This document shows, piece by piece, positions 1,655-22,234 of a DNA stretch of 24,738 bases; the first letter of the stretch is position 1; each line of letters begins with the position of its first letter. Source of the DNA: a virus; the IMG/VR virus record IMGVR_UViG_3300043449_001158, positions 1 through 24,738 of that record; one strand, 5' to 3'. The notes beneath the pieces are model-generated. The model ran no database searches and was not told the DNA's origin. It saw only the letters and a list, made by a program, of their open reading frames with translations. The position numbers and the translations under genes were made by a program.

Positions 1655-1838
1655 ATCACAACTCATGATCGAGCTGGAGGAAGCCAAGGCCGAGAACCGG
1701 TACCTGCGCCACCAACTCAACAACACCTTCCACGAGGCCCTTCGACTGCGCCATGCCATGGAGCAGATTTATGGTGCAGCACACATGACGCTGCATGTCA
1801 TCAACACAGGAGCGACAGATGAAAAACGTAATGGTTGA
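1647..1838 (+). CDS. small coiled-coil protein, 63 aa
   Basis: The start is taken as ATG 1647 (MNESQLMIELEEAKAEN), with GAGG at 1637-1640 upstream. The longer frame from 1593 would overlap the previous gene by 62 nt without a better ribosome site. Residues 1-40 form a charged helix with a leucine heptad-like pattern, predicted to be a coiled coil, so the protein may dimerise. The C-terminal part has no recognisable motif. It overlaps the start of the exonuclease gene by 20 nt, suggesting coupled translation. The function is unknown, and this short gene is less certain than its neighbours. Confidence 0.55.
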   Translation: MNESQLMIELEEAKAENRYLRHQLNNTFHEALRLRHAMEQIYGAAHMTLHVINTGATDEKRNG

Positions 1839-2331
1839 CTTGGAGACACTGGGCAACGGCAGCAATGCCGTGATGATCGCCATCGGTGCGGTGGAGTTCG
1901 ACGAGACAGGCCTTGGCCGCACGTTCTACATGAACGTCGACCCACAGTCCTGCGTAGATGCTGGCCTGAAGATGGACGTCAGCACCGTGATGTGGTGGAT
2001 GCAGCAAAGCGACGAAGCTCGTGCCGCGTTTAAGAAGCCCGGCGTCCCGCTGGAGCTTGCGCTGGCTGAGTTCTCCAACTGGTTCCCGCGCGGCGCTACG
2101 CTGTGGGGCAACGGTGCCACGTTCGACAACGCCATCCTCGGCAACGCGTACCGCGCACTGAACGGCAAGCAGCCATGGGAGTTCTGGAACGACCGCTGCT
2201 ACCGCACGCTCAAGAGCATGTACCCACACATCAAGATGGATCGCTCGGGCACGTACCACAACGCGCTCGATGACGCCAAGTCGCAGGCACTGCACGCTGT
2301 CCGTATCTTGCTTGCATCGAAGGTGGTGTGA
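1819..2331 (+). CDS. DEDDh 3'-5' exonuclease (RNase T/DnaQ fold)
   Basis: The start is ATG 1819 (MKNVMVDLETLG), preceded by AGGAG at 1809-1813; the upstream in-frame ATG at 1795 has no such support. The 170-aa protein shows the DEDDh signature: D7 and E9 in VDLETLG, D103 in WGNGATFDNAIL, and H147 with D152 in HNALDDAKSQA. These residues coordinate two metal ions in 3'-5' exonucleases. The pattern, including the WGNGATFDN segment, resembles the phage exonuclease/Rv2179c-like exoribonuclease group rather than a polymerase proofreading subunit. It probably processes DNA or RNA 3' ends during replication or recombination. It lies just upstream of the nucleotide-pool and polymerase genes; the TGA overlaps the next ATG. 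Confidence 0.88.
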   Translation: MKNVMVDLETLGNGSNAVMIAIGAVEFDETGLGRTFYMNVDPQSCVDAGLKMDVSTVMWWMQQSDEARAAFKKPGVPLELALAEFSNWFPRGATLWGNGATFDNAILGNAYRALNGKQPWEFWNDRCYRTLKSMYPHIKMDRSGTYHNALDDAKSQALHAVRILLASKVV

Positions 2332-2657
2332 TGAAACAGCTCGGCCTATTCCCCGAAACCTTGGCCCCGACCACTGAGGGCCGCAAGTACGACGCAGGTA
2401 AGCCCGATTTCACACTGTTGCCGTGGGACGGCATCGAACAGATCGTGCGCGTCCTCGACTTTGGAGCAAAGAAATATGCACGAGACAACTGGAAGCACGT
2501 GGCGGACGCCGACCATCGCTATCTCGCGGCTGCGTTCCGCCATCTTGCGGCGCACGCACAGGGAGAAAAAGCTGACCCGGAAACTGGTATCAGCCATCTC
2601 GCGCATGTGGGGTGCTGTGTGCTCTTCCTTCTTTCACTGGAGCAAACCCATGAATAA
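2331..2657 (+). CDS. dATP/dGTP diphosphohydrolase-like protein (DUF5664)
   Basis: The start is taken as ATG 2331, with AAGGTGG upstream; a GTG one codon earlier is also possible. The 108-aa protein contains KYDAGKPDFTLLPWDGIEQI, then VLDFGAKKYARDNWKHV, then RYLAAAFRHLAAHAQGEKAD and the TGISHLAHVGCCVLFLL helix. This is the conserved order of the DUF5664 family, now associated with dATP/dGTP diphosphohydrolases such as cyanophage S-2L MazZ. The domain is related to all-alpha NTP pyrophosphohydrolases, in which acidic residues on two helices bind metal. It would act in the cytoplasm on the phage nucleotide pool. The family is common in phages with normal DNA, so no modified genome is implied; no purZ-like gene is present in this window. 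Confidence 0.8.
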   Translation: MKQLGLFPETLAPTTEGRKYDAGKPDFTLLPWDGIEQIVRVLDFGAKKYARDNWKHVADADHRYLAAAFRHLAAHAQGEKADPETGISHLAHVGCCVLFLLSLEQTHE

Positions 2658-2976
2658 CCCACTGTCTGGCGCTATCGGCGCAGCAAACGCAGGATTGACC
2701 GGCAGCATCGGCATGGCCAACGCCATCAGCAACACCAACAGTGCAGCGCAACAGCACGCATACAACCAAGCTGTGCAGTCTAGGATGTGGTCGAACGAGA
2801 AGAGCAAGCGCATGGTGCTGAACCTCGTCATCGAGCAGGCGGGCAACGGCTATATCGTGGGCTTCGCTGCCGGGTACGGCGAGATCATGGACAAGCAGGT
2901 GGCCACCAGCATCGAGCAGGTGCAGAACATCATCGCCGCTGAGATGGCGTCACGCATGTTGGAAGCGAGCGCGTAA
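2650..2976 (+). CDS. hypothetical phage protein, 108 aa
   Basis: ATG 2650 gives a 108-aa protein beginning MNNPLSGAIGAANAG, overlapping the end of the diphosphohydrolase-like gene by 8 nt; the longer frame from 2461 lies inside that gene and is not used. The N-terminal 40 residues are rich in Gly, Ala, Ser and Asn, with repeated short GxxGxANA-like motifs. The C-terminal half (IEQAGNGYIVGFAAGYGE, then a long helix to the end) resembles a small alpha/beta domain. No family is recognised. Its stop and the polymerase start share an A (TAATG at 2974-2978), so it is probably translationally coupled to the polymerase. Confidence 0.65.
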   Translation: MNNPLSGAIGAANAGLTGSIGMANAISNTNSAAQQHAYNQAVQSRMWSNEKSKRMVLNLVIEQAGNGYIVGFAAGYGEIMDKQVATSIEQVQNIIAAEMASRMLEASA

Positions 2977-4814
2977 TGGACATCCTGACCGTTGACTTCG
3001 AGACTTACTACGACCAGCAGTACAGCCTCAGCAAGATGCAGACCGATGCGTACATCAACGACAGTCGGTTTGAGATGATCGGCGTGTCCGTCATCAAGAA
3101 CGATGAGCCCGCTGTGTGGTTCTCTGGCTCCGAGCTGGAGACCATCGGCTGGCTGCACGGCAACTACGACTGGGAGAACAGCGCAGTGCGCTGCCACAAC
3201 ACCATGTTCGACGGGTTCATCCTGACGCAGCGCTGCGGCATAAAGCCCAAGCTGTGGATGGATACCCTTGGCCAAGGCCGCATGCTGCTGCCGTTCCTGA
3301 CGTCGCACTCACTGGCCAACCTCGCCAAGCAGTACGCGCTGCCTGACAAGGGCACGGCTGTGGTGAAGGCGCTGGGCAAACGCCGCGCAGACTTTAATCC
3401 CATGGAATTAGAGGAGTACGCGGACTACTGCAAGCACGACACGTGGCTGTGCAAGGAGCTGGGCAAGCGCTTTGACCCGTTCACCCCAGCCTTGGCCATG
3501 AAGCTGATCGACATGACGGTGCGCATGTTCACCGAACCCATGCTGATCGGCGACCAAGCCAAGATGAGACAGCTGTACGACGACGAGGTGATCCGCAAGG
3601 AGCTGCTGCTCAAAGAAGCCGCCGTGAACCGCGACGTCATCATGTCCAACGACAAATTCGCCGCTCGCCTTCTGGAGCTGGGTGTGACCCCGCCGATGAA
3701 GCAGAGCAAAGCCAACCCTGACAAAGAGACCTATGCCTTCGCAAAATCCGACAAAGCCTTTACCGACCTGCTGGAGTCCGACGATGCGGACGTACAGGCG
3801 TTGGTTGCGGCTCGCCTTGGTGTCAAAACGACTATCGCTGAAACACGTGCGCTGAAGTTCTTGGAGACTGCACAGCGCGGCCCACTGCCGGTGTATCTCA
3901 ACTTCTGGGGTGCCAAGACGACCGGACGCTACTCAGGCGGCAACAGCATCAACTGGCAGAACATCCCTGCGCGTGGCCCCTCGGCGGGTCTGCGTGCGGC
4001 ATTGCTGGCTCCGCCCGGTCATACGGTGCTGGTGGGTGACTCCTCCAACATCGAGCTGCGCACAGTGATGGCGCTGGCTGGGCAAGATGACGTGGTGGAC
4101 AAGCTGCGCAATGGCGTCGATCTGTACTGCGACTTCGCGGGCAAGCTGTTCGGTCGTGTGATCACCAAAGCCGACAAGGCCGAGCGCCAGCTGGGCAAGG
4201 TGGCCATGCTGTCCCTGCAGTACGGTGCTGGTGCCAAGCGATTCCAAGAGATGGTGCGCATCGCTGCGCGGACTGACAAGGCGCTGACACCGATCGACGA
4301 AGCGCGGGCCTATGCCATCGTGGACTTGTATCGCTCCGTGCACCACAAGGTGGTGGCGCTGTGGCGCAGATGCAACGACGTGATCTTGCCGGACATCGCC
4401 AACGGTTGCAGCATGACGAACGTGGACATCCCCGGATGGTTCATCACCCAGTGGGACGGCTTCGGTCGCCCCGGCGAGCCCGGAGTCATGTACAACGACC
4501 TGAAGTGGGACGGCAAAGACTGGACGTACCAGATGGGTCGCCAGCGAGTGCACATCCACGGCGCGAAGATGGTAGAAAATTTGTCGCAGCATGCTGCAAT
4601 GCAGATCGTTATGTGGCAAACTGCACGTATCAATCAGCGCTACCCAGTGAAGCTGTCCGTCCATGACGAAGCTGTCTGTGTGGTGCGCAATGAAGAACTT
4701 ACTGAAGCACAGGCGTACATGGAAGAGTGCCTCGCAATGACGCCCAAGTGGTGTCGCGACATTCCCGTGGCGTGTGAAACTGGAACTGGCCCCTCGTACG
4801 GAGACGCGAAGTAA
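2976..4814 (+). CDS. DNA polymerase, family A, with 3'-5' exonuclease domain
   Basis: This 612-aa replicative polymerase has no 5'-3' exonuclease domain, as is usual for phages. The proofreading domain carries D7 and E9 (VDFETYYD), D79 (HNTMFDGF) and Y151/D155 (YCKHD). The polymerase domain has motif A with catalytic D355 (GDSSNIELR). Its motif B helix runs from R404 through K408 to Y416-G417 (RQLGKVAMLSLQYG), and motif C is H563-D564-E565 (LSVHDEAV). Aligning motif B with E. coli Pol I puts Leu412 at the position of Phe762. The motif A second residue is Ser where Pol I has Tyr. It extends primers made by the primase-helicase encoded downstream. TAATG coupling links it to the upstream gene, and its last A is shared with the next ATG. 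Confidence 0.95.
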   Translation: MDILTVDFETYYDQQYSLSKMQTDAYINDSRFEMIGVSVIKNDEPAVWFSGSELETIGWLHGNYDWENSAVRCHNTMFDGFILTQRCGIKPKLWMDTLGQGRMLLPFLTSHSLANLAKQYALPDKGTAVVKALGKRRADFNPMELEEYADYCKHDTWLCKELGKRFDPFTPALAMKLIDMTVRMFTEPMLIGDQAKMRQLYDDEVIRKELLLKEAAVNRDVIMSNDKFAARLLELGVTPPMKQSKANPDKETYAFAKSDKAFTDLLESDDADVQALVAARLGVKTTIAETRALKFLETAQRGPLPVYLNFWGAKTTGRYSGGNSINWQNIPARGPSAGLRAALLAPPGHTVLVGDSSNIELRTVMALAGQDDVVDKLRNGVDLYCDFAGKLFGRVITKADKAERQLGKVAMLSLQYGAGAKRFQEMVRIAARTDKALTPIDEARAYAIVDLYRSVHHKVVALWRRCNDVILPDIANGCSMTNVDIPGWFITQWDGFGRPGEPGVMYNDLKWDGKDWTYQMGRQRVHIHGAKMVENLSQHAAMQIVMWQTARINQRYPVKLSVHDEAVCVVRNEELTEAQAYMEECLAMTPKWCRDIPVACETGTGPSYGDAK

Positions 4815-13378: not shown

Positions 13379-16300
13379 AGCTCTTCTCCACGTTTTTTGG
13401 CAATCTCTTCGTCCATGCGCTCGCGCAGGCTGTCGAGTTCTTTGTCCAGCGCCTCGTAGTCGGGGTACCCTTTGCGGTACTCGTCGCGCTTGGCCTTGGT
13501 CATTGCGGACTTGAATTCCTTCTCGACGCGCTTGGCGGCCAGCTCTTGAACTGCCTCAGCCTCAGTAACGTTGTAGTCGTACAGCTTCAGACCGAAGGCG
13601 CGAGCAAACACCAAGCTGGATGGCTCGGCACCCGTGATGCCAGTCTTTCCCTCGATGACGTCGGTGGCGCGGCTGAGCTGGCGGCTGCTGATGCCGGGCG
13701 GCGAGACGATGTCGTACGCAGCCTTAGTCGAGTTCCACAGCTTTTGCCACTCGGTGTCGGTCGGTTGGTGGATCGACTTGCCAGTGTAGGTGTCCACGCC
13801 CAGCACAAGGCTTGCAATGGCCGACACGAATGGGCCGCTGGGGGTGACCATGCCGGGAATCCACGACTGACCAGCGAAGCCGTTGGGCAAGCCCTTGGTC
13901 AGGGACGCAGCCGGGAAATAGTCGCCCAGCTTGTAGTACACGGGGTTCTCGGCATCGCCCATGAACGGGATGCGGACGTGCATGTAGGGGCCGACGGAGC
14001 CAAAGAACATGCGCTCGCGGATCGACTCAGGCCCAGACTTGCGGGTCTCTTCGTCATCGTCACCGGAGGCACCAGCCATTGCGGCTTCCAGTATGTAGTA
14101 GGCCATCAGCACATTGGCAATCTTCCACGGCTGGGTCAGTGCCATACGGCCAATCATCGGGCCCATGGCGTAGCCCCACGACACGAACGGCAGTACCGTC
14201 TGGCGGGCGACCTTCACGGCCTTGGAGTCGATGTCGTAGTCACCGAACGCCTTCAGTGCGAACTTGCCTGCAGTGCGGAACATCTCGTCGGTCGGTGCCT
14301 TGCCCCCGGCCTTGAGCTGCTCTTGGCCAACGCTCTTCATGAACGCAGCCATGCGGAACGCGTTGTCTTCAAAGGCGTACATCTGAGACATGAAGTCGTC
14401 GGCCTTGCCCACGTTCTTGGCGAGGAACTCAGCCTTGGACTTCTCGATGCCGAGGTGGCCTGCCACACGGGTCAGCAAACTATCATCATTGCCGCCGCGC
14501 ACGTTGGCCTCGTGGGCCTTGTACAAAGCCTCTTTGACTTCGGCACTGGAGAAGTCGCCCAGCATGGCACCAGAGTTGATGAACTGCTCGACCATGACGC
14601 GCTCTTGCTTGTTCAGCGTGTTCGGGCGGAACGAGATGTCGTGCATCATCGCCATGGTGATGTTGGACGCGGCGTTGGTCAGGTGTGTGCCGGGGTTGAG
14701 CGTGGTCTTGGACTTCTTGAACCAGCGCATGGTGTTGTTGATCGCACGCACCTTGATTGCGGGCTGGCGGTCGATCATGTCGGTCATGGCGTTCCACACC
14801 GGGCCGGGGATGTACTTGCCCGCCAGCTCGCCGTACACATCGGACTTGGGCATCTGAACCCATGTGCCGGACATGCGGTACAAGTCTTTGGTCTTCTCCG
14901 AGCGGGCCATCTCCAGCGACACAGACAACACTTGGTCTTCGTGCACCTTGGTGCCAAATTCCTTGTTGATCTCGTCGATGCTGTCGAACGCGACCTGTGC
15001 ATGCGGGCTGCCTTCCTTGCCCATCTTGGCCAGTGCACCGATGAAGTTCTTGCTGGCGTAGTTGTTGGCCAGCGCGGCCATGGTGTTGCGCAAGGCGTTG
15101 GCCAGATCGTCGGCCTTCTCGTCGGCAATCTTCTCGCGGGCAGTCGTGTTCGTGGTGAACTTGTACTTGCCCTTGTCCGCGTCGCCCGACTCCAAAATCC
15201 ACTTGCGTGTCGTGTCAACGGAGAAACCGACTGGGTCTTTGCCCATCTCGGCAAAGCGTGCGGCAGACATAAACCCGGCAGACTCGGGCGTGCCGGTCAC
15301 CGTGTTGGCGGTCTTGAAGACTTGGAAGAAGTCGCCGTCAATGATCGCATCGCCGTTGGCGTCTTTGGTCACCCAATCCATGTCGAGGTCGTTCTCGTTC
15401 ACGGACTTCTTGCCCAGCACGGCGTTGATCTTGCCGAGACCGAACTGGTTACGCGCCACTTCCTCGGTCTTGCCGGGAAACAGCAGGTTCTCAGAAAACT
15501 TGCGGGTGCGGAAGAACTGCTGCTCGATGGGCGACAGCTCTGACACGTACAGGTCGAACCAGCGCTTCATGTTGTCGGCCAAGCCCTTGAGCTTGCCGCC
15601 GTCGTCCAGACCATCCAGTGCGCGTTTGTTGCCGTCCAGATAGTCGAACACAGCGTTGACTTCAGCAGCGGGCTTGCTGACGATGTAGTTGGCGATGCGC
15701 TCAGCCACTTGGTAGCCGACGTTCTTGTCGTACTTGTAGTTGTCCTGAATGTCAGAGACGTCGCGGTTCACGTTGTAGCGCGAGTTCAGTAGGCCAGCAA
15801 CGATCTCAGCACCGGGGTAGTCCTTTGCCGTTTTGCGAGCCCACTCTGCCAGCTTGTCAGCGGTCTTGCCGACGACGCCTTCTTTGCTCCAGCCGATGGC
15901 CTCGAACACGCGCTGCGTGCTGAACACGTTGACGAGGTTGGTGTCGACCCACTTGGTGTAGTCGGTCTCAGGCACACCCAGAGCCGCAGCCTTGGCGCTG
16001 TTGTCGGTCTTCTTGGTGCTCTGCACGGCGGCTTCCAGCACTTGGCCGGTGGCTTTACCTGTCGGCTGGGTCTCAGCGGCCTGCTGAAGAAGGCGGAAGC
16101 TACCCATGAGCACATCGCTGGCTGCCGTGTTGTTGGTGCCCAGCATGCGACGCACGGTGGCGAGCATCATGTTCCAGACATCTTTGGCAGCCTGCACGAA
16201 CGACTGGGGTGTGCCTTTAGATGGCATGGCCTCCAGCGCCTTGCGGAACTCGACCAGCGTGTTGCCGTAGGAGATCAACTCCAGCACAGCGTCCAGTTCG

Positions 16301-19300
16301 CGTTTACCCGCGACCAGCTCAGCCAACACCTTTTGCACCTCGGCGGCTTTCTCGCTGAGCTTGGATGAGTCGTACTTGACGACTTGATTCACCGACTTCA
16401 CCAGTTGGCGAACGATCGGGTCTTTGGGGAAGGAGTGCACAAACCACTGCAAGGCGGCGTGCAACGCCTCGTGCAACGCGACTTCTGGCGAAGCCGTTGG
16501 CGACATGGTCACCGTGTTGTTCTTGGGGTCGAACTGCGACTTGCCCTCGGCGAAGACGATCTTCGGTGGGTTCTTGGTGTTCTTGAACACCTCGGACACG
16601 GCCTTGGCAATCATGCGCTCAAACGGTGTACCGCTGCTGCGAATGTAGTTCAGCACGCCTTGGAAGCCGGTCTCAGCCTTGGTGAACTTGTTGACCGAGT
16701 GGCCGTACTTGGCAGCACGCACCAGCGGCTGCTCGAAGCCTTGCTGTTTCTCTTCTTTCGATGTGCGGACTTCGCCGCCACGAACATCCAGAACGTCTTT
16801 GCCTTCGCGGAACGTGCCGCGCTTGGCAGCTGCCCAGCCTTGCGACAGGCCGAGGTCGAGCTTTTCGAGGGCTTTGATCTCGGTGGCGATTTCCATCGCC
16901 TGCTCGCCGTCTTCCTCGCCGAGCGCATCCATTTGATCTTGCAACGCCTGCTTCTGCGCTGCGATCTTGTCCTTGTTCAGGCGGATCAGGGCTTCGACGT
17001 TCTTGGCGGAGTTGCCAGCGGCTTGGCCGAGGGCAGTCAGCGCAGTCTGCGCTTCACTCCAGAGCTTCTCGACGTTGGCTACGTTCTCACCAGCACGAGC
17101 TTCAGCCTGCGCCTGTTCCCCTTTCTGGGGGAATTTTTTGGTGGACTTGAGCGTGGTGCGGCTTTCGGAAGGCACCATGTTGCCAGCGGCGTTCAGGTAC
17201 TTGGCATAGGCTTCGCCAAAGGCGCGAGCGGCTTGCGCCAGTTTTCCACCCTGCTCGTCACGGCTCTTCTTGCCAGTCAGGAAAGCATCACGGGCGGCAC
17301 CCAGAACCTTGGCTGTGAATGTGGGGCGGCCACCAACGCTGATGCGGCCACCTTGCACCGAGGCGTTGAGGTTTTCGGCTTCGCCGCCCACGAGAGGGCG
17401 CAGGCCCAGCTCGTCGATGGCCTGCTGCGTTTGTGCGATGTCGGCTTCTTCGCCTTCGGCTACTGCTGCGGGGGCAACTGAAACGGCGGCTGGGGCTTGT
17501 CCTTGCGCTTTTGTTTGCTTGGCTTGAGGGGTTTTAGGGCCACGTTTCGGAGCTTTCAAAGAAGCTCCCGCCACGACCGGCGTGACGGGAGAAACGGCGC
17601 TTGCGGCACCGGGGGGAGGAGAAACTTGTGTGACTGGAGCTGCAGGAGCCACAGCGGGGCCAGCAGCCAGCGGCCCGCCTTCTTCTTGGGCGAGCACTTG
17701 TTGGCTGTTCAAGATCGGAGTCTGGAACATGCCGGTGCGAATCTGCGACAGCGTGGGGCGCGGCTGTTGGGGCTGCACCTCGTAGACACCGTCGCCTTTT
17801 GTGGTGATGCCCTGCACGCCGTAAGCCCTGCTGGTGGTTTCCCGACCGGGGGCGGTCAAGTCCACGGGCGCTGTGGGCTGCTGGTAGTAAACACCGGGGG
17901 CGCTCTGAATGATGCCCGGTGCAATCTCTGCGCCAGTCTCGACTTGCTGGAGTTGCTCGCTGCTTGTGAGCAGGCCGCGTTGGCCGCTGATGTAGTCTTC
18001 TGCAGGTGCGCGTGCGCCGCCGATCAGGTCGATTTCACGGGTGCGTTCCTGCACAGGCGTAATACCCAACAAGGAGTCAATACGTGCCTGCAGGTCGATA
18101 GGCTCCGCCTCAGTCGTGATGCCCTTGGTCAGCTCGCGGTACTTGTCGCCCTCAGCCTGCTCGATCTCGCGCAGCTTCTCGGTGCGAGCGTCTTCCATGT
18201 CCAGCTGGGTGTCGAACCACTTGTCGACATCTTGAGCAGCAACACCTTGGCGCTGCGCTTCGGCCATGACCATGTCCATGGCTTGTGCGCGGACTTCGGG
18301 TGGTGTGGACTCGCCATACAAGGCTTCTTTGAGTCGAGCAGCGTTGCGAGCACGCGACACGTGACCACCAAACGACAGCGGACCGAGCAGCAGGGACAAG
18401 CCAGCGCCGCCCAAGGCCGACTGCCGTGCAATCGCACCGAGGTCTTCCTCTTTAGCGCCGTAGGCTCGCTCCACCAACGCAGTGCCCACGTCTTGGCCAG
18501 CTTCGGTACCTGCCTGCACAGCTGTGTTGACAGCCATACCCTTGGCGAACGGGCGAATGACGCCGGTGTCGGTCGCTGCTTTGGCGATACGCTCGGTTGT
18601 GGGTGCACCGCGAACAGCGGCCATGGCCGGACGGAATGCAGCACCCAGACCAGCAGTGGCGATACCCTCGCCAACACCTTGCACAGCCCAGACGCGGCGA
18701 GCCGCTGCGGCAGCCTCGGCTTCGGGAATGCCCTGCTCGATCAGCTTCTCGTACGTGTCTTGTGCAGAAGAGCCGCCGAACAAACCACTGGCCAGCGCTG
18801 ACGAAACAGCTTGCCCGCCGGGCAAGAACGCAGCGCCAAGGACGGGTGCCATCGGGCCGATAGCCCGTGCACCGGACACCAACGCTTCGCTCACCAAACC
18901 ACGGTCGCGCATGTCGGCTTCCCAGCCGGGAGCGCGTTGTTCAGCACCAGCAACCAAAGATTGCCCAGCGCGGTACATAGCGTCTGGCTCGGAGACCTGC
19001 ACGCCATACTGACGCTCAAGTCCTGTGGGGCGGCCCAGTCGTGGGAATGCGCCTTCGCCTACCCGTTGGCCACCAGCATCACCGTAATACTTCAGGGCTT
19101 GGCCAATAGTGCGTGGGAGGTCAACAGCAAAACCAGCACCGAGCTGACGACCGACTTCGCTGGCTGTGCCGCTAGGCGCAATGCCTAGCATGTCGGAGAT
19201 TTGCCCGACCGACGCGCCGGAGCGACGAGCCGCTTCGCCAAGAACCTCCGAGTCGCTTGCGTTTGCTAGTTCAGGGAAGGCTTGGCGAATTTGGTCGATG

Positions 19301-20806: not shown

Positions 20807-21814
20807 TCAGACCTCCACCATTTCAATGCCGAGACCGGCGTAGTTGACTGCCTTGTAGCCGTCAGGCATTTCGTAGACCATGTCGGGGAAGCGCTTCTCA
20901 ACGTCATCCGCCATCACACCCAGATAACGCTTGCCCGAGCCGTTCTTGTACTCAAACTCGTACAGCGGCAGCATGGTGCGCTCGTCACGACCCACCTCTT
21001 GGATATTCTCTTTAAGGCGGCGATCCGAGAAGTATGTGGCCGCTGCGCCCAAGCCCGCACCGAGCATCTCGCCCTTAGCGTTGATGCCTGTGTTGTATGC
21101 ACTCGTCTGCGCGTTGAGGATATTGCCCTGACCTTGGATGCCCATCTGAGCACCTTGGATGCCGTACTGTGCGCCTTGGCCGAACGCTTGGCTGTACTGG
21201 TTGCCAGCGGACATAGCCGAGTTCAGACCAGCAGAACCTGCGCTCGTTGCACCGCCGTATGCGGCGGACGAAGCGCCAGCGAGGCCACGGCCAAGGCCAG
21301 CAGCGTCGAGGCGGCGGGCCCAGCCCATCTGTTCGGCTTGTGTGCGTGCACCGGTCTGTGCGCCTGCGGTGGCGGCAGCCAGTTTGAGGGCGTTGGCATT
21401 CTGCGCGGCACCGAAAGCGCCAGAGTTGGGGTTGATGCCCCGGCGAGTAGCTTCGCGCATGGACACACCTTGCGCACCTTGGAACGCCTGCTGCACGTCG
21501 GCGGCGGCCTTCTGAGCCATTTGCTCGCGGTAAGACTCTGTGTTGAACTTTTGCGCGTCGGCGACGAGGCCCTGCTCAAGCGGTCGGAACGTGCCCACGT
21601 TGTAGTCGTAGTAATCCTTGGCCTGCTGCATCTGCTGCGCTTGCGCGGCCATCTGCTGGTCAGCAACCTTCTGCGCCAGCGGTTTCATCTCCTCGTACTG
21701 GCGCTGGGCAAAGTCCATCTGACGAGTGCCTAGTCTTTCAGCAACATCAATGCCACGCTGGGTGGCAGCCGCCATGGCGCTGTAGTCTGGTGCTGGTTGC
21801 GATTTACCGCCCAT
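20807..21814 (-). CDS. probable internal virion protein with C-terminal S74 intramolecular chaperone
   Basis: The 335-aa protein has a Gln/Ala-rich helical N-terminus (about 10-110), a Gly/Ala/Ser-rich middle (about 175-235) and a C-terminal domain from about 260. That domain carries FSDRRLKENIQEVG, LPLYEFEYKN, KRYLGVMADDVEKRFPD and AVNYAGLGIEM, the signature of the S74/endosialidase intramolecular chaperone. S263 and K268 have the Ser-x4-Lys spacing of the self-cleavage dyad, so the last 73 residues may be released. S74 domains help trimeric tail spikes fold, but similar endings are also seen on small Ala/Gln-rich podovirus proteins encoded just before the ejection proteins. Which structural role applies here is inferred from context. 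Confidence 0.72.
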   Translation of the reverse strand: MGGKSQPAPDYSAMAAATQRGIDVAERLGTRQMDFAQRQYEEMKPLAQKVADQQMAAQAQQMQQAKDYYDYNVGTFRPLEQGLVADAQKFNTESYREQMAQKAAADVQQAFQGAQGVSMREATRRGINPNSGAFGAAQNANALKLAAATAGAQTGARTQAEQMGWARRLDAAGLGRGLAGASSAAYGGATSAGSAGLNSAMSAGNQYSQAFGQGAQYGIQGAQMGIQGQGNILNAQTSAYNTGINAKGEMLGAGLGAAATYFSDRRLKENIQEVGRDERTMLPLYEFEYKNGSGKRYLGVMADDVEKRFPDMVYEMPDGYKAVNYAGLGIEMVEV

Positions 21815-21817
21815 GAT

Positions 21818-22234
21818 TTACTCCTTGCGCAGCCACCGACAGGTGTCAGGCCGCATAACCAAAATGTGCATGTCAGCGCCCGGTGCGCCGTCCTTCATCA
21901 AGAACTCTTCTTCAAAACCGAGGTGCTTGTCAAAGGCCAAGATGTGCGGTTCGTTCGACGGAACCATACCCGTAAGCCGCTTCAAACCGCAGTGCCAAAA
22001 AGCGTACTCACACACCGCTCGGAACAGCGGGATGATCATTCTGGTGTGCCGTGCGATGGCTATGTGGCAAGTCGCATTGGCACCGTTGAAGTTGTTGATC
22101 ACCACCCCGGCTACAACGTCGTCACCCTGAATAATGCCCAGTGCATAGAAGCTACCCCAGTCAGCACCTTGGCCAACCTGCTGGGCAACCCATGCACCGA
22201 TACGCTCTTTCTGGTCGAAGACGAGTTCTGCCAT
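21818..22234 (-). CDS. GNAT-like acetyltransferase
   Basis: The 138-aa protein reads as a small GNAT fold. An N-terminal helix is followed by strands SFYALGIIQGDDVVAGVVIN and ATCHIAIARHTR, and a helix IIPLFRAVCEYAFWHCGLKR takes the place of the acetyl-CoA-binding helix. GMVPSNEPHILAFDKHLGF carries the N...A..F..K.GF segment typical of GNATs, followed by EEEFLMKDG. The classical Q/RxxGxG/A loop is poorly kept, so the phosphopantetheine contact is weak by eye. Such genes are frequent in podovirus late regions, where the substrate is unknown. The ribosome site upstream of ATG 22234 is weak. It lies directly before the 335-aa virion protein gene. Confidence 0.75.
   Translation of the reverse strand: MAELVFDQKERIGAWVAQQVGQGADWGSFYALGIIQGDDVVAGVVINNFNGANATCHIAIARHTRMIIPLFRAVCEYAFWHCGLKRLTGMVPSNEPHILAFDKHLGFEEEFLMKDGAPGADMHILVMRPDTCRWLRKE

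Follow-up and report, generated by a model that had tools for sequence, protein, structure and literature searches.

P0001, a giant protein of 1977 residues, is encoded by the 24,738-base virus record analysed here (the window). A HEALH pentapeptide near its middle raises the question of whether the protein contains a metallopeptidase and, if so, which polypeptide such an enzyme would cut, and when. The first-pass annotation had placed this HExxH motif at residues 946-950, preceded by NNTVTMSPTASPEVAL and followed by AALQWF, and the codon positions and the translation bear out both the location and the context (Table 1). HExxH occurs only once in P0001. With 13 His and 140 Glu residues, 0.006 such motifs are expected from the composition of the protein, and 57 of 10000 shuffles of P0001 contained one. 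Among the frames of at least 60 codons in the window there is one further HExxH (HERSH, at 14338 on the plus strand); it is part of a 720-codon frame running antisense to the P0001 gene, and we regard it as a chance occurrence. Searches with P0001 itself gave no match at E 1e-5 among 50,697 phage records, and no Pfam model scored above its cut-off for the protein or for its domain.

Table 1. Positions in the window of the giant gene, the residues discussed and the neighbouring genes of the block.
Feature	Position	Strand	Reading	Basis
P0001	13375-19308	minus	1977-aa giant protein, putative largest ejection protein; carries the MPTase domain	ORF translation and relatives
MPTase domain, residues 868-1085	16054-16707	minus	Zincin-like metallopeptidase (MPTase) domain	AF2 model, fold matches, phrog_2206
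HExxH	16459-16473	minus	H946 and H950 putative zinc ligands, E947 putative general base (roles by zincin analogy)	Invariant in 114/114; model helix 941-959
T932	16513-16515	minus	Invariant residue that starts strand 932-935 ahead of the active-site helix	A3 alignment and model
E1010	16279-16281	minus	Candidate third zinc ligand	Invariant in 114/114; in model helix 1004-1017
GQVLEAAVQS, residues 1088-1097	16018-16047	minus	Directly behind the MPTase; insertion slot in relatives	Clade comparison
P0002	19330-20907	minus	Second gene of the putative ejection block	Relatives upstream of the giant gene
P0003	20807-21814	minus	Virion structural/DNA-ejection-like, C-terminal Peptidase_S74	PHROG and Pfam

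Relatives of P0001 are encoded on ten viral contigs, with 48-66% identity in the best segment, and HExxH and a downstream glutamate, E1010, are kept in 10/10; none of the search patterns that found these relatives spans HExxH. The wider set of domain loci comprises the best 80 of the 137 confirmed in the scan with alignment A1 and the best 80 of at least 335 from the scan with the distant-group alignment A2. These 160 locus rows correspond to 155 distinct contigs by contig name. HExxH is at the expected place in 159 of the 160 listed rows, and the sole row without it (L080) starts behind the site at a contig end. Named phages are represented among the matches of the distant relatives, with 36 records matched by L089 and 57 by L086. 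A scan of bacterial and archaeal genomes confirmed 0 of 291 candidate stretches.

Alignment A3 has 114 sequences: the window domain and 113 others, taken from 125 distinct domain sequences (97% filter; sequences shorter than 190 aa had been removed beforehand). Identity to the window reaches down to 16%, and 70 of the 114 sequences are less than 30% identical to it. At least 90% occupancy is found in 171 of the 218 query columns, and five of these columns are invariant: T932, H946, E947, H950 and E1010. The three motif residues, each present in 114/114 sequences, are not freely substituted, and a chance origin of HEALH was rejected on this conservation among relatives. E1010 and T932 fall within back-translated search patterns, as HExxH does not, so their invariance is partly selected. 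Among the A3 sequences that do not match the respective patterns, E1010 is invariant in 35/35 and T932 in 39/39.

The third zinc ligand had been missing from the first-pass annotation. E1010 is the strongest candidate by its invariance in A3, and on the alignment and the model described below it is most likely this ligand. Metzincins have a third histidine, in the signature HExxHxxGxxH. In P0001, H950 is followed by AALQWFVH, with no Gly-x-x-His, and the invariant third residue is E1010; the metzincin assignment was rejected.

AlphaFold2 run on A3 (114 sequences) gave a domain model with a mean pLDDT of 91 and a pTM of 0.89, superseding an earlier model from 11 sequences with a pLDDT of 74. 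The model has helices at 881-892 and 895-910, strands at 916-919, 925-927 and 932-935, and then the HExxH helix and the helix with E1010 (Table 1). The predicted fold is zincin-like, with E1010 located where the third ligand would be expected. Foldseek found nothing in the PDB at E <=0.001 with this model (the first row is a transcriptional regulator). The 11-sequence model had given no Foldseek match at E 0.001, and its VIA-align rows were mixed and weak, with Z up to 4.6.

With the 114-sequence model, VIA-align returned a group of structures at Z 5-7 (values described by the program itself as common), and below this group Z drops from 5.0 to 3.9. The top row is the phage N4 virion RNA polymerase (vRNAP; 9pnt, Z 6.7, 166 aligned residues, rmsd 4.5; also 9pnr, Z 6.6). 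The group includes lethal factor over residues 566-776/778, which we take to be the protease part (1pwu, Z 6.4; zinc-bound 4pkq, Z 6.4, 147 aligned residues, rmsd 4.2), as well as PPEP-3 (9g0j, Z 5.8), PPEP-1 (6r5a, Z 5.3), Certhrax, and an anthrax-toxin complex with edema factor. Lethal factor and the PPEPs are zinc proteases of peptidase family M34. The model aligns to them at Z 5.0-6.5 over 130-164 residues with an identity of 7-14%, and some of these alignments run over a non-protease copy of the fold: 1pwv and Certhrax 4fxq (both Z 6.5) are aligned over chain residues 21-263, which are presumably N-terminal fold copies and not the protease. Since rows of similar Z hit non-protease copies, the fold match alone says nothing of catalysis. 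A viral structure library gave 10 matches at E <=0.001, the first of them named for large polyvalent protein associated domains and others for a virion RNA polymerase and an internal core protein. The conserved HExxH, the invariant E1010 and the zincin-like predicted fold support the active-site reading of the first-pass annotation, and the P0001 motif is very probably that of a zincin.

It is conceivable that the fold was kept for a role other than proteolysis, either as a different HExxH enzyme or through a metal site whose only function is to stabilise the ejection complex. HExxH is also present in radical SAM enzymes, according to the N4 vRNAP preprint (PMC12633501); statements taken here and below from this preprint, from PMC5512222 and from PMC11440229 refer to the accessible portions of their text. 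Proteolysis by a close relative was not found in the accessible literature, nor was a measured cut by a zincin-like domain of any polyvalent protein. However, E947 would serve as the general base rather than bind the metal, and yet it is conserved as strictly as the ligands; this would be needless in a purely structural metal site, which is therefore disfavoured. Another chemistry appears very unlikely, and there is similarly little chance that the MPTase performs no proteolysis.

The P0001 domain is the zincin-like MPTase already described in phage polyvalent proteins, which is the most widespread domain of the injected polyvalent proteins and has been placed in N4 vRNAP (Iyer et al. 2017, PMC5512222). 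Like the MPTase in that description, it has HExxH in the first and Glu in the second conserved C-terminal helix, and in the model it has three strands, in keeping with a three-stranded sheet, and an N-terminal helix (895-910). It is also part of a giant phage protein, and ADP-ribosyltransferase (ART) domains are its neighbours in relatives of P0001. Carriers of this MPTase are large multidomain proteins of phages or conjugative elements, with effector or LPD domains. Relatives of P0001 have such partners, with LPD39 in the distant relatives L086 and L089, whereas P0001 is large and has no recognised partner domain. The window's clade also has its own form of the site, E-x-x-x-Y with Tyr at position 1014 (44/114), in contrast to E-x-x-x-E with Glu at this position in the larger group (70/114). 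The second His and the Glu are 57-79 residues apart in the window's clade (57-62 in 39/44), compared with 39-41 in the larger group.

By itself, the window domain matches phrog_2206, "virion RNA polymerase", with an E of 5.9e-11 over profile positions 2072-2248 of 3406, and 69 of the 114 A3 members match this family at E 0.1. The Pfam family Tox-MPTase4 (PF15640) gives the window domain 15.8 bits, below the curated cut-off of 25, and matches 80/114 members at E 0.1 (best E 2e-5). For ATLF, 15/114 members reach the limit of 0.1 (best E 0.0035), with no significant match for the window domain. Searched against PDB chains, the A3 profile matches 9sfn, "Internal virion protein" (5.6e-14), 8vb2, "Tetrameric ejection protein (gp48)" (1.1e-7), and 23sg, "gp10" (1.1e-4), with HExxH and the Glu all present in the alignments. 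PDB sequence searches with a single sequence or with 11 sequences gave chance-level rows only. The A3 profile also hit phosphatidylinositol phospholipase C chains (E 0.001-0.003), over a short stretch that is taken as chance.

In phage N4, the phrog_2206 sequence match and the top VIA-align row both lead to the C1 domain (residues 2124-2375) of vRNAP gp50, and its authors remarked on the HExxH of C1 (PMC12633501). Unlike N4 vRNAP, P0001 has no recognised RNA polymerase domain.

PhiM1 gp48 (8vb2) and the largest internal virion proteins of T7-like Pseudomonas putida phages and a Variovorax phage carry the domain as well, with profile matches over HExxH and the Glu, and they are members of ejection blocks. 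The profile-profile match to the T7-like protein has a probability of 98.7 and an E of 2.2e-16, with an alignment (A5) of three sequences, two of them identical. In a full-length profile comparison of A4 and A5, similarity was found in residues 880-965 only, with none to the T7-like proteins beyond the MPTase. The full-length profile gave chance-level rows only against the PDB, so no relation to T7 gp16 is indicated outside the domain. The PhiM1 and T7-like proteins have 1263-1525 residues, compared with 1977 in P0001, and are called endolysin-like. In gp48, the label refers to Asp268-Asp528, called endolysin/exotransglycosidase-like by the authors, whose structure search pointed elsewhere than to a zincin; the accessible main text has no word starting with metallo, protease or peptidase (PMC11440229). 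The A3 profile covers gp48 residues 379-514 with the full motif, and on this sequence comparison we read these residues as a zincin domain.

The endolysin/exotransglycosidase label of gp48 (PMC11440229), together with P. putida homologs annotated "with endolysin domain", would be consistent with a role in the cell wall, where the domain would cut peptidoglycan cross-links or an envelope protein during channel building and so replace the transglycosylase of T7 gp16. No lysozyme or transglycosylase was recognised in P0001-P0003, with one chance-level PHROG row (P0003, E 0.13), and P0001 matches no cell-wall hydrolase family at E 1 in Pfam or PHROGs, an absence that is not proof. However, the profile and fold matches of the MPTase go to zincin families and phage ejection proteins, and not to cell-wall enzymes. 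In addition, early genes of N4 are transcribed by vRNAP as the phage invades (PMC5512222), and the MPTase carried by vRNAP would accordingly reach the cytoplasm. A cell-wall role seems quite improbable.

The giant gene appears to belong to an ejection block. The order P0001-P0002-P0003 resembles the three-protein ejection blocks of podophages (PMC11440229), and P0003 matches phrog_8003 (virion structural, 2.3e-47), phrog_4287 ("DNA ejection protein", 8.7e-14) and PF13884 (Peptidase_S74, 3.1e-9). Upstream of the giant gene, sequence of 3.2 kb or more is available on 56 distinct contigs, of which 50 encode a relative of P0003 and 31 a relative of P0002 in that region (tblastn, E 1e-5). From this gene order, and from the homologous domains in solved ejection proteins, we infer that P0001 is packaged and ejected.

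In its longest frame, P0002 shares about 100 bases (20807-20907) with P0003, so its real start is probably downstream of the longest-frame start; a start at MGWASG (residue 35) removes the overlap. P0003 ends in a Peptidase_S74 intramolecular chaperone domain, which is usually found on tail spikes. A small acyl-CoA N-acyltransferase-like gene adjoins the block (21818-22234, minus strand; phrog_4470, 1.8e-25), and separate exonuclease-like (178 aa) and DNA-polymerase-like (612 aa) genes lie at 1795-4814 on the plus strand.

P0001 probably contains, with high confidence on our part, a gluzincin-type peptidase within a virion-packaged and ejected giant protein, and this peptidase would cut a polypeptide in the host. 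Residues of about 868-1085 would form the zincin, with one zinc held by H946, H950 and E1010, and E947 would activate the water. The MPTase, mid-protein in the largest product of the three-gene block, would be packaged in the virion, and P0001 would enter the host together with the DNA or before it, so that cutting may take place inside the envelope or in the cytoplasm. The substrate may be the ejected protein complex itself, in which regulated cutting would split apart the modules that follow the protease, among them, in some relatives, effector cassettes such as ADP-ribosyltransferases. Such self-processing after release is our first choice for two reasons: exchangeable modules follow the protease, and Iyer et al. 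make a case for processing. It is also the least certain part of the reading, and is proposed tentatively, at somewhat under an even chance.

Processing might also occur earlier, as an autoproteolytic maturation before packaging that would leave the domain spent in the virion. This has been proposed for P1 DdrB, which is processed before packaging with its own MPTase predicted to be responsible, whereas N4 vRNAP, which also has the MPTase, is packaged unprocessed (Iyer et al. 2017, PMC5512222). Recombinant N4 vRNAP was likewise handled full-length, and its density is continuous over residues 1007-3500 except for two loops and a 23-residue linker that immediately precedes the HExxH domain (PMC12633501), which also counts against the preferred self-processing reading. 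In PhiM1 the homologous region was modelled within the virion ejection protein (PMC11440229). Maturation before packaging is unlikely.

The segment directly behind the MPTase, at which the modules are exchanged, bears on self-processing after release. It has 244-382 residues in 13 of 61 distinct clade proteins and 69-90 residues in the other 48, the window among them. The 13 cassette bearers are L022, L025, L030, L031, L035, L037, L038, L047, L050, L053, L057, L063 and L064. The ART scan covered 11 of these cassettes, with L047 and L038 (whose segment is identical to that of L037) outside it. ART-PolyVal scored above the Pfam cut-off in 9/10, and the cassette of L031 was also found to be an ART in a separate scan, giving 10/11. 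The L035 cassette, which is unrelated to these, has no Pfam match, and in PHROGs it matches only a family of unknown function (2.1e-4); by its motif we take it to be ParB-like.

A short motif flanks the cassettes. GN-x-L stands before the cassette in 13/13, and GN-x-L or NN-x-L stands after it in 12/13, with DNIL in L057; the non-ART cassette of L035 likewise has a copy on each side. At least one G[NQKS]-x-L is present in 47 of the 48 cassette-free proteins, and L014 has SQIL. The repeats may be cleavage sites, or they may show where recombination took place. The two DNA copies in a protein, in the cases read, are not the same at synonymous positions. This argues against a direct repeat of very recent origin, but it favours neither recombination nor cleavage. 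A result against cleavage is that [DN][IL]L is a common ART end, so that the copy behind the cassette may be part of the ART: this tail ends 5 of the 6 ARTs of named phages that were examined, out of 28 matched records, and in L181 it is the natural C-terminus of a stand-alone ART protein. The MPTase may be a processor of plug-in cassettes that cuts at G-N-x-L-E-A-A-like copies and frees any effector after ejection, though this scheme is improbable. Cassette release cannot be the general role, because 48/61 proteins have no cassette and yet keep HExxH.

The clade proteins vary at other sites as well, with a 68-residue insert at residue 626 in 5/55 and a long N-terminal extension in 2/55 (pairwise comparison). 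In L179 (Caulobacter phage Jess A), an ART is directly followed by a stretch with another HExxH, in the reverse of the order seen in the window's relatives.

Host targets rank next after self-processing. The MPTase would then be an effector protease that cleaves a specific host protein after ejection, for example a defence protein, RNA polymerase or an envelope protein; host cleavage had been suggested in the first-pass annotation. Some of its fold relatives are zinc proteases, and lethal factor and the PPEPs have substrate specificity. The active site is kept also in proteins without a cassette, and ADP-ribosyltransferase cassettes adjoin it in relatives. However, there is no positive pointer to a host target, and the domain is present in N4-like, T7-like and, weakly, crAss-like phages. 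Because it spans such different phage types, a general role fits better than a single host target, and cleavage of a host protein is possible but doubtful.

The "endolysin-like" region of PhiM1 gp48, and some of the proteins labelled "internal virion protein with endolysin domain", are suggested to cover a zincin. If the plug-in scheme is true, any effector placed in the slot behind the protease would be freed after ejection. One active site joins the N4 virion RNA polymerase, the T7-like internal virion proteins and the PhiM1 ejection protein.
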